From NCBI GenBank assembly GCA_011526365.1, contig WTIO01000082.1, positions 1 to 64,000 on the forward strand: a DNA stretch of 64,000 bases. The letters are read 5' to 3'. Made by a program: the position numbers and the translations under genes. Origin of the DNA: Flavobacteriales bacterium. GTDB lineage: Bacteria > Bacteroidota > Bacteroidia > Flavobacteriales > Flavobacteriaceae. Under the pieces are notes generated by a model that was given only the letters and a program-made list of their open reading frames with translations, was not told the origin of the DNA and made no database searches. Below, in pieces: positions 11,294 through 41,547 of this stretch. Every line of letters starts with the position of its first letter. Within the stretch, counting starts at the first letter, position 1.

Positions 11294-11608
11294 GTGCTAG
11301 AACGCTTAAAATCGCGCTGGAATATTCAATCGAATTTACAGCTGCTCATCATCTTTATTGTATTCGGAATCACAGGGAGTGCCAGTGTTGCCCTTGGAAA
11401 ACCCCTATTGGAGTACTTACAGCTGCAACCAGAGGATTTTCAGGAAGTCCCATTGGGAACCCTGTGGTACTTCATGCTGCGGATACTGCTTATTTTTCCC
11501 CTCTACCAGGTAGTACTCTTGGTGGTTGGAGCAGCCTTTTTTCAATTCAAATTCTTTTGGGAGTTCGAAAAGAAAATGCTCACCAAATTATTTTCTAGAA
11601 AGCGATAG
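11294..11608 (+). CDS. small membrane protein (DUF6787-like)
   Basis: Protein of 104 residues starting at GTG, seven bases after serA ends. Two hydrophobic segments (about 17-36 and 56-80) flank a short polar loop, and both ends are basic (LERLKSRW, KKMLTKLFSRKR), so it is a small inner-membrane protein. It looks like a family common in flavobacteria that I recall as DUF6787. Function unknown; it is probably cotranscribed with serCA. Confidence 0.65.
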   Translation: MLERLKSRWNIQSNLQLLIIFIVFGITGSASVALGKPLLEYLQLQPEDFQEVPLGTLWYFMLRILLIFPLYQVVLLVVGAAFFQFKFFWEFEKKMLTKLFSRKR

Positions 11609-20683: not shown

Positions 20684-20842
20684 AAATTCAATTTTTAAAA
20701 TAGCCACTAAAGAGGGTTACCACCTCTATTGCTCTTCAATTTAGGCAATTCTTGTCGAACAATTAAACGCATAAGTAGTGAAGGTTGCGAAATCAAGTTC
20801 CTGAAAAATTGTATTTTAGTGGTGAACCATAAACTAATTCAA

Positions 20843-21628
20843 ATGAAAAAAATCCTTTTATCTGTACTCTTTTTGTGCAGTGGTATTGCCAATGGACAGT
20901 ATGCTTCCACAATTTTCGTTACTCTTAATGACGGCATGGAGCAGGCCTATTTAGACATCGAAATGCTTTGGCAAGCCTATCATGAAGAAACCGTTAAACA
21001 AGGTTTAAAGTCGGGCTGGTCCGTTTGGAAAATTGACCCTGCGGGGTATGACGACAAAATTGAAGCCAGCAGAACCCCTGACTATTTAATCATTGAATCC
21101 TATCCTACAATGGAGGCCATGGAAAAGCAAAACGCTAGCTACACCACGGAAGGCTTTGAAGCTATAGTAAACACGATTAAAAGAAAGTTTAGAGGAAAAA
21201 TTAGTTCCCGAAAAATTGACCGCATGCTGGCGAAAGACGTGAACAAAGAACGACGAACGTATGTGCATCAAATGCTAGCACAAACCCCTTTTACTGGAGG
21301 AGATTTAAAGCCTGGTGAAAAAATGGTATTAGCGCCCATGCAGCAGTTAAAGGACGATTATGAGCAGTATGAAACAGCGTTTTACCAAAAAGTATTTGCC
21401 AATAATGTAATGAAAGGCAACCACAGATGGTGGGCCTTTACTAAGATTATTGATCGAAGTGAGAATGCGATTAACAACACCACACATGCCGCTTGGAATA
21501 TTGGCATTGAAGGTAAATCGATGGATATGCCACAAGATTTTGCTTCTCAAAAAATATTTGAAATTACTTCAGAAGCTCGTAAAATGTACAATCCAATTAC
21601 GCTCGAACTGGTATATACTGTCCAATAA
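20843..21628 (+). CDS. secreted protein of unknown function
   Basis: Protein of about 261 residues from the ATG at 20843, which starts a standard signal peptide (KKILLSVLFLCSGIANGQ). The mature part seems to contain two similar alpha/beta halves, with IIESYPTMEAMEKQ and WAFTKIIDRSENA as parallel elements, reminiscent of dimeric alpha-beta barrel (ABM-like) domains. I recognise no catalytic motif. It is divergent from the fucosidase operon and ends at a strong terminator, so it is a single-gene unit. Confidence 0.7.
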   Translation: MKKILLSVLFLCSGIANGQYASTIFVTLNDGMEQAYLDIEMLWQAYHEETVKQGLKSGWSVWKIDPAGYDDKIEASRTPDYLIIESYPTMEAMEKQNASYTTEGFEAIVNTIKRKFRGKISSRKIDRMLAKDVNKERRTYVHQMLAQTPFTGGDLKPGEKMVLAPMQQLKDDYEQYETAFYQKVFANNVMKGNHRWWAFTKIIDRSENAINNTTHAAWNIGIEGKSMDMPQDFASQKIFEITSEARKMYNPITLELVYTVQ

Positions 21629-39721: not shown

Positions 39722-39784
39722 TAAAAAAGGCGCTCCGCAGAGCGCCTAGAACCATAAACCAATTAAAATCAAAAGTATAATTGC
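39722..39784 (-). ncRNA. candidate small RNA with own promoter and terminator
   Basis: Predicted transcript of about 60 bases on the minus strand. A promoter matching the consensus exactly (39789-39818) is followed by about 40 bases with no convincing ORF (AT-rich, containing TTTTAATTGGTTTATGG) and then a canonical terminator. It does not overlap a protein gene: the glycosylasparaginase ends at 39702 on the other strand and the zinc-ribbon gene upstream has its own terminator at 39831-39860. I cannot say whether it matches a known RNA family; Flavo-1 is one to test. Confidence 0.42.
39723..39747 (-). terminator. rho-independent terminator of the candidate small RNA
   Basis: Perfect eight-pair GC-rich stem (AGGCGCTC / GAGCGCCT on the plus strand, 39728-39747) with a four-base loop; read on the minus strand it is followed by six T. 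On the plus strand no T tract follows, so it is oriented for minus-strand transcription. Confidence 0.75.
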
Positions 39785-39788
39785 TGCG

Positions 39789-39818
39789 CAAAAATACTAA
39801 AAAATGACACTGTGTCAA
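39789..39818 (-). promoter_or_regulatory. perfect promoter with palindrome over the -33 box
   Basis: Minus strand: TTG (39816-39818), exactly 19 bases, then TATTTTTG (39789-39796). The -33 box overlaps the perfect palindrome TGACAC-A-GTGTCA (39805-39817), a likely operator. Confidence 0.55.
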
Positions 39819-39830
39819 GTTTTTGATTAT

Positions 39831-39860
39831 AAAAAACCCTCCCAAGATGCTGGGAGGGTT
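39831..39860 (-). terminator. rho-independent terminator of the zinc-ribbon gene
   Basis: Ten-pair stem AACCCTCCCA / TGGGAGGGTT (39835-39860) with a six-base loop. On the minus strand it runs into a T tract from the A run at 39831-39836. It lies about 100 bases after the stop of the zinc-ribbon gene and just upstream of the next promoter. Confidence 0.75.
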
Positions 39861-39961: not shown

Positions 39962-40165
39962 TTAAACACTACAGCTCATGTCTTCTCCACAACACATGGG
40001 CGATTTAATTTTTCCTGAGCAATCGGGGCAAATGGAAATTTGAACCTTAGTTCCATCGTCTAGGGACAGCCAATCATTTTGAAGTGGTGTGTTACATTTT
40101 GCACATTGTGCGTTAACCTGCATATCACATTTGGAACAGGAATACGTGGGTTGTGTCATTGTCAA
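39962..40165 (-). CDS. small zinc-ribbon protein
   Basis: Protein of 67 residues with repeated Cys pairs: CSKC, CAKC, CPDC and CC near the end (MCCGEDMSC), so it likely binds one or two zinc ions. It has no other domain. The ATG at 40165 is followed by a second in-frame ATG two codons on; either may be used. Isolated gene with its own terminator. Role unknown; similar small zinc ribbons are common in Bacteroidota. Confidence 0.75.
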   Translation of the reverse strand: MTMTQPTYSCSKCDMQVNAQCAKCNTPLQNDWLSLDDGTKVQISICPDCSGKIKSPMCCGEDMSCSV

Positions 40166-40335: not shown

Positions 40336-41547
40336 ATGCGCGTAAAGCTTCGTCAACTGAAAAGAAAGAATGGTACTATCGCTCTGCGTCTGGATACGTT
40401 TTTGGGGTATTATACGGACGAAAAAGGAACACGGAAAGCCAAGCGCATACGAGAAACCTTACCACTACACATTGCCCCTGCAGATGCAATTTCACCTGAT
40501 GTACGACAATCCATTTTACAACAGGCAGAACAAATCAGGCTTAAAAAAGAACGCGAACTTCAAGAAACTGGGCTCTACCCCTACTTTAAAAAGAGAAAAT
40601 CTAATACATCTTTACTCCTCTATTTGGAAGCCTACATTGGATCGCAAAAGCAACACAAAAGTAACATTGCACTTTGGCGTGGATTGCAAAAGCGACTGGA
40701 GTTGGTTTGTTCTCGTGAAATGCAGTTTAAAGATGTCAATGTGGCCTTTTGCGAACAAGTACTTTCTAGTTTGATTCAAGGGAGTACTAACGGGGAATTA
40801 AAACCGCTTGCCCCAAATACAGTTAAAAATTATTTTAGCCGATTTATTCGGTTTCTGCGACACGCAAAAAAGGAGGGACTGCTCAAAACAGTGCCTAAAT
40901 TTCAACCAAAGTTAACGCCTTCAAAAAATAACAGGAGTTATTTAAGATCTATTGAAATTCAAGAACTTAAAAATACATTTTGTAGTAATCAAGACCTTAA
41001 AAATGGCTTTTTATTTGCTGTAGAAACCGGACTGTACTTTCATGAAATCCAAAAATTAAAATGGGCTAACATTCAAAATGAAAATAAATTATGGCTCTTG
41101 GATGTGCCGGGAAGACCCACTGCAAACGGAATTCGTTTAAAACTATCCCCTGATGCAATTGCCCTATTGGGAGAACCAGGCCCAAATTCAAAGTTGGTAT
41201 TTCCACGTTTAAAAAGTACGCAGGAAAATAATATTCAGTTGCTAAAATGGGCTGTAAAAGCCAATTTAGGGAAACCCATTACATTTTCAATTTCACGAAA
41301 AACCTATGCGTATTTATCTGTTTCAAAAAAGTTGTCCCTAAACACTATCAACCTAGGACTTGGCCATAAGGACCTAAAGACCACCCAGCAGTTTTTAACT
41401 AGTCTTAAACTTAAGGTTCAAAAACCGAGTGCATCAAATTCTACTAAAGCTTTATTTCTGTCTAAGTCCCACAGCAGCCAAAACCTACTTTCAAAATCAA
41501 TTCGTTTGCAGTTGCGTAATTACAATCATGTCTTTATTCATGTTTAG
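40336..41547 (+). CDS. tyrosine recombinase homologue lacking catalytic residues
   Basis: Protein of 403 residues laid out as a Bacteroidota integrase: an N-terminal arm-binding domain (about 1-75), a SAM-like core-binding domain (about 90-185) and a catalytic domain (about 205-365). The catalytic residues are mostly lost: the first Arg, normally in TGLR, is Tyr234 (TGLYFHEI); the HxxR motif reads SISR (Ser318, Arg321 kept); the nucleophile Tyr is Phe353 (KTTQQFLTS). LGH is retained. It should still bind DNA but not cut it. No intact mobile element surrounds it. Confidence 0.85.
   Translation: MRVKLRQLKRKNGTIALRLDTFLGYYTDEKGTRKAKRIRETLPLHIAPADAISPDVRQSILQQAEQIRLKKERELQETGLYPYFKKRKSNTSLLLYLEAYIGSQKQHKSNIALWRGLQKRLELVCSREMQFKDVNVAFCEQVLSSLIQGSTNGELKPLAPNTVKNYFSRFIRFLRHAKKEGLLKTVPKFQPKLTPSKNNRSYLRSIEIQELKNTFCSNQDLKNGFLFAVETGLYFHEIQKLKWANIQNENKLWLLDVPGRPTANGIRLKLSPDAIALLGEPGPNSKLVFPRLKSTQENNIQLLKWAVKANLGKPITFSISRKTYAYLSVSKKLSLNTINLGLGHKDLKTTQQFLTSLKLKVQKPSASNSTKALFLSKSHSSQNLLSKSIRLQLRNYNHVFIHV

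Follow-up and report, generated by a model that had tools for sequence, protein, structure and literature searches.

Does the compact unit next to a zinc-ribbon gene in a Flavobacteriales bacterium encode a regulatory RNA and, if so, which genes does that RNA act on and which signals control it? The window analyzed here is the whole 64,000-nucleotide stretch of contig that contains the unit. A preliminary description of this DNA had proposed a separate small-RNA-like gene with a palindrome over its promoter, without reporting a family, targets, or the restriction of the palindrome to this copy. We find it likely that positions 39723 to 39785 of the minus strand encode an RNA of ~63 nt, belonging to a set of four paralogues, that would act in trans by base pairing and repress target leaders. 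In the absence of transcript data, its transcription is inferred.

Architecture of the unit

The elements named in the preliminary description were all found at their places on the minus strand. The -33 box, TTG (39818-39816), as read from the sequence, is separated by a 19-base spacer from the -7 box, TATTTTTG (39796-39789), which fits the Bacteroidota form TAnnTTTG, and a perfect palindrome, TGACAC-A-GTGTCA (39817-39805), spans and separates the two promoter boxes. The RNA body (39785-39723, with the 5' end inferred from the -7 box) includes a 5' hairpin, in which the left arm CAAUUA (39783-39778) pairs with the right arm UAAUUG (39765-39760), an invariant core, AAUUGGUUUAUGGUU (39764-39750), antisense to the target leaders described below, and a terminator stem-loop, supported by sequence and fold, with a GC stem (39747-39728) and then six T (39728-39723). 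The predicted fold consists of the 5' hairpin and the terminator (-18.6 kcal/mol; z, -2.6). The zinc-ribbon gene that lies upstream (39962-40165) ends at its own terminator (39860-39835, minus strand), which is separate from that of the unit. A 403-aa ORF adjoining the zinc-ribbon gene (40336-41547, plus strand) looks like a tyrosine recombinase of the phage or conjugative type, an impression from the sequence without a profile search.

The only ORF of at least 40 aa across the unit is a mechanical 51-aa frame with a TTG start, which begins in the neighbor's terminator, crosses both hairpins, and lacks conservation among family members; it was rejected, and the unit was indeed without a plausible ORF. 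The unit thus has the own promoter and intrinsic terminator, with no ORF, expected of a trans-acting base-pairing RNA in general. By itself, this pattern is not beyond chance: a 3-kb region held 5 promoter-like sites versus 6.5 expected in shuffled sequence and 3 terminator-like sites versus 3.3, with no excess of either. The case for an RNA gene is comparative.

Copies, spread, and structure of the RNA family

A covariance model built from ten members, with the window sequence left out of the seed, detected four copies in this genome (G000; 47.5 to 78.6 bits), each with its own promoter, and one of these is the window unit (47.5 bits; E = 2.7e-4 for the genome). The exact 15-mer core AATTGGTTTATGGTT occurs six times in this genome versus zero for the reversed control; G162 and G209 have four occurrences apiece, and G002, a sister species, has two. 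A blastn-type search within this genome returned two kinds of partial match, of the palindrome and promoter at C47 and of the RNA body at C11 and C69. Because of the comparative evidence (i.e., the model built without the window and the six-to-zero count of the core), and not because of the pattern alone, we accept 39723-39785 as very probably a real small-RNA gene and one of four family copies in this genome.

Members share a layout composed of TAnnTTTG, 3 to 5 nt (the distance from the -7 box to the body in most of them), the hairpin CAATTC...GAATTG, the core GGTTTATGGTT, and then a GC hairpin that varies between members and is followed by a T-run. When 397 Flavobacteriaceae genomes were searched with the covariance model, matches were obtained in 12 genomes of 7 genera, one of them weak, and a pattern scan over 257 billion bases, with each species represented by a single genome, produced 51 exact matches, all in records titled Flavobacteriaceae, Flavobacteriales, Flavobacteria, Bacteroidetes, or Bacteroidota. 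Nearly all of these 51 come from metagenome-assembled or single-cell genomes, many of them marine. In total, the family comprises ~60 distinct genes from at least 6 genera; the named records are all Flavobacteriaceae or Bacteroidetes, mostly uncultured. A viral collection yielded one weak match only. The view of the unit as a separate gene for a base-pairing RNA, of ~63 nt, was accordingly upheld by paralogues that keep the same promoter-hairpin-core-terminator order at unrelated places in this genome and in at least 6 genera.

Among 67 distinct aligned sequences, 98.7% of the cells are paired, and 12 of the 16 pairs show changes on both sides; none of 500 shuffles was as high, and slid versions of the alignment were also far below. 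This covariation, one of the checks that the preliminary description had suggested, lies mostly in the terminator, and the alignment, a few rows of which are weak, had been fitted to the structure. Across the family, the 5' stem is nearly constant, the core AAUUGGUUUAUGGUU is nearly invariant, and the terminator is variable.

Conservation beyond close strains, whose absence the preliminary description had named as grounds for refutation, holds for the family and thus does not refute the RNA, although the window copy itself was absent from all other genomes searched and no conserved synteny was found for it. DNA matches of the window locus in G001 and G002 proved to be of the neighbor's terminator only, inside an unrelated (fabF-like) gene, and were discarded. 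Its score, the lowest of the four, and its lack of a counterpart elsewhere could indicate that there is no functional RNA here, only a chance promoter and terminator around a decayed family copy. We regard such a pseudogene as very improbable: the promoter spacing is exact, both hairpins are intact, and the change in the 5' stem relative to the family (CAAUUA..UAAUUG versus CAAUUC..GAAUUG) is a compensated double change, from C-G to A-U at the inner pair. The altered arm also fits AAUUAAAAUG, the most frequent form of the leader, with a match of 20 pairs.

Several further loci were observed. The members at L082:2613-2679 (C19:70112-70178 of this genome, minus strand) and L064:1363-1426 (G002) are orthologous between two species of the genus, and both are followed by the same gene, alanine dehydrogenase-like, with a product that starts MKIGVP. 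Three copies (L130, L134, and L146) lie on one 1.1-Mb contig, CALSLW010000001.1, of isolate V_MB133, and at L120 a second hairpin-core sequence, CAATTCGATGAATTGGTTTATGATT, stands directly upstream of the copy, as if it were a tandem duplicate.

The Rfam models suggested in the preliminary description (Flavo-1 and other Bacteroidota RNAs) did not match; no family of Rfam 15 matched the window unit or 12 member loci, even though the host ranges of Flavo-1 and other Bacteroidota RNAs overlap with that of the present family. A literature search with the core sequence found no relevant paper. The family is new to Rfam 15 and, within the limits of the open literature searched, to that literature.

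Complementary leaders and predicted duplexes

The core is the reverse complement of a leader motif, AACCAUAAACCAAUU (often AACCAUAAAU..), which lies ~7 to 11 nt ahead of the AUG of mostly secreted-protein genes. The RNA thereby also shows the conserved region complementary to several unlinked mRNA leaders that is expected of trans-acting base-pairing RNAs in general. One predicted target site lies in the window itself (AACCATAAACTAATTCAA-ATG; 20825-20845, plus strand), at the start of a gene (20843-21628, plus strand) for a 261-aa protein with a signal peptide and no Pfam family. Others in this genome are at C47:17744, C1:14094, C1:14957, C16:21303, C52:24, C52:600, C62:74849, C73:109, C76:489, and C82:15145, with weaker pairing at C6:111349, giving a set of about a dozen genes. 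Most encode proteins of about 230 to 270 aa with a signal peptide; the remainder include a SnoaL-like protein, a RidA-like lipoprotein, and two small membrane proteins, where assignments not made by Pfam are a reading of the sequence. Of ten targets scanned with Pfam, two had a family (SnoaL_2 and Cupin_2) and most had none. A dimeric-barrel (ABM-like) reading of the targets is a sequence impression only, since the AlphaFold2 model of the window target (pLDDT, 46.6) was not used.

The leader motif accompanies the RNA. In 11 RNA-holding genomes, the pattern AACCATAAACN{2,18}ATGA was found 54 times versus 8 for the control (2.63 versus 0.39 per Mb, about sevenfold), and in 69 genomes of the same bacterial family without the RNA it was found 130 times versus 143 (0.58 versus 0.64 per Mb). 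These counts were obtained by pattern searches; some occurrences of the motif in the RNA-holding genomes were already known, and among the 54 are a few matches to the RNA genes themselves, on their antisense strands. The correspondence is imperfect: in the sister species G002, which has two RNA copies, the motif is not in excess (7 versus 6), and the fragmented assembly G001 has the leaders with no RNA copy detected.

To what extent could the motif be explained without an RNA? It may be an element for translation or protein binding that gene duplication has spread, with the small RNAs mainly as decoys for the protein that binds it or as by-products of inverted leaders. In keeping with this, the plus strand of the window copy, AACCATAAACCAATTAAAATCAAAAG, closely resembles a target leader, AACCATAAATCAATTAAAATGAAAAA, many targets are paralogues, and, since some of them share promoter sequence too, gene duplication may account for some of the conservation seen in the leaders. 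We nonetheless consider this explanation very doubtful indeed. The RNA holds the complement of the motif rather than the motif and cannot be a copy-type decoy, and its promoter, hairpin, and terminator are maintained from genus to genus, with compensatory changes. Moreover, the motif is common to targets of unrelated families with unrelated upstream DNA. In 35 leaders whose upstream 38 bases were <60% alike, the upstream columns carried ~0.1 bit, and conservation began at the motif, whose columns were fixed by the search itself, and continued past it. In nearly all of these leaders, the AUG stands 8 to 11 bases after ACCATAAA, and nearly all of the ORFs open with a signal-peptide-like stretch.

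Two related observations concern copies of the leader sequence. The resemblance of window positions 39750 to 39785 (plus strand) to an inverted target leader suggests how such genes may arise. A target mimic, TAACCATAAACCAATTT, without a following ATG and just before an intrinsic terminator, occurs at two loci in two genera (L080:4718-4772, i.e., C69:62717-62771 of this genome, plus strand, and L079:4239-4188, on C44 of G162, minus strand); both adjoin a gene for a target-type secreted protein and may be sponge RNAs or the ends of 3' untranslated regions.

According to RNAduplex, the C11 paralogue and the window target would be joined by 23 contiguous pairs that take in the AUG and reach the second codon (-30.5 kcal/mol); the window RNA would form 20 contiguous pairs with the C16 leader (-25.5 kcal/mol) and a duplex of -28.4 kcal/mol with the C52b leader. 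Background start regions, which include a few of the targets, average about -12 kcal/mol. The predicted pairing element on the RNA side is GGUUUAUGG, and the altered arm of the window copy, UUUUAAUUGG, fits the commonest leader version, AAUCAAUUAAAAUG; its pairing with leaders has a mismatch at the G of the AUG. The core AAUUGGUUUAUGGUU and the loop of the 5' hairpin would thus pair with AACCAUAAAYYAAUUnnnAUGA, the leader shared by about a dozen mRNAs, although duplex formation in the cell is inferred from complementarity.

The predicted duplexes cover the initiation region, with the AUG itself included in many pairs. Ribosomes of Bacteroidota work without Shine-Dalgarno pairing (PMC9976891); for this reason, we infer that initiation should be blocked by an RNA that lies over the AUG and the short, A-rich leader. 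The best duplexes, which run through the start codon, would exclude the ribosome from leaders without Shine-Dalgarno sites, and a group of mostly secreted proteins would then be made in smaller amounts, switched off together. The same pairing might instead activate or stabilize the mRNAs, e.g., by shielding short 5' leaders from decay. Pairing does start near the inferred mRNA 5' end, so protection is possible there, and in Flavobacterium psychrophilum some predicted target mRNAs decrease when Rfp18 is lost (PMC9723704). We cannot rule out activation by this kind of mRNA protection, but we judge it rather unlikely, as a duplex over the initiation region should block ribosomes; repression is the inferred direction.

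Probable inputs of the copies and comparison with known RNAs

The palindrome had been suggested to be a control site, a suggestion that is moderately supported. In this genome, it recurs only at C47:11379-11403 (core, 11385-11397), in the same position at a promoter, with an SCP2-like gene on one side and a divergent 3-hydroxyacyl-CoA dehydrogenase/enoyl-CoA hydratase gene on the other, and it is also present at the G002 counterpart of that site. It was not found in 28 other genomes examined, and a large regulon was rejected, with matches beyond the two strong sites at control level. The site, TGACACAGTGTCA, is probably a repressor site, given its recurrence beside a beta-oxidation gene and its center ~26 bases ahead of the inferred RNA start; its function is inferred, and the regulator is unidentified. 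A protein bound there would block RNA polymerase at a site shared with a beta-oxidation promoter. Upstream of a hydroxyacyl-CoA dehydrogenase gene in G022 (L235), another palindrome, TTTATTATGCGCGCATAATAAA, replaces the TGACA..TGTCA of the window genus.

Among the family copies, the palindrome is specific to that of the window. Five other paralogues (L071, L112, L146, L154, and L156) carry TGTRAY-N4-RTYACA ~40 bases upstream of the RNA (5 observed versus 0.005 expected from shuffles), a CRP/FNR-like site in an activator position whose regulators are unidentified. The copies thus share an output and differ in input, and the same core behind different promoters would wire each of them to a different signal. 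A more elaborate network, with many inputs and one output, can be put forward only tentatively. In it, each paralogue would answer to a different transcription factor (through the beta-oxidation-type palindrome at the window copy and the CRP/FNR-like sites at others), copies would arise by inverted duplication of leaders, and the target-mimic RNAs (C69 of G000 and C44 of G162) would act as sponges.

Multicopy RNAs with one pairing core and one target set are represented in other phyla by Qrr of Vibrio and LhrC of Listeria; the present family differs in pairing with leaders that lack Shine-Dalgarno sites and in having copies with visibly different operators. Functionally nearest is FopS/GibS of Bacteroides thetaiotaomicron (RF04319), a multicopy RNA with a shared seed and a Rho-independent terminator that pairs near the start codon and represses outer-surface genes (PMC11697453). 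Both are paralogous Bacteroidota RNAs with own terminators (four copies in G000) and start-region pairing, which is predicted in the present family, but they are different families: the RF04319 model had no match in the 12 member loci (E up to 1) or the window unit (E up to 10), and FopS/GibS has a single-stranded 5' seed and one terminator hairpin in place of the 5' hairpin CAAUUC/GAAUUG, for which 98.8% of cells are paired. Its targets are susC-type polysaccharide loci, whereas those predicted for the window family are small secreted proteins. Rfp18 of F. psychrophilum, a conserved trans-acting RNA, resembles the family in its Flavobacteriaceae host range and its several predicted secreted-protein targets (PMC9723704). 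By description, without a sequence comparison, it is a different RNA, with the pairing region in a third stem-loop and metalloproteases and an adhesin as predicted targets; the window family has two hairpins.

Marine Flavobacteriaceae have a major role in the breakdown of algal matter in the sea, most of them are uncultured, and their regulation by RNA is scarcely known. The present results provide a defined RNA family with covariation and about a dozen predicted target genes, as well as a simple testable rule, nine bases of pairing adjoining the AUG, in organisms without Shine-Dalgarno pairing. They also single out a large family of secreted proteins whose function is unknown and which are apparently controlled together.
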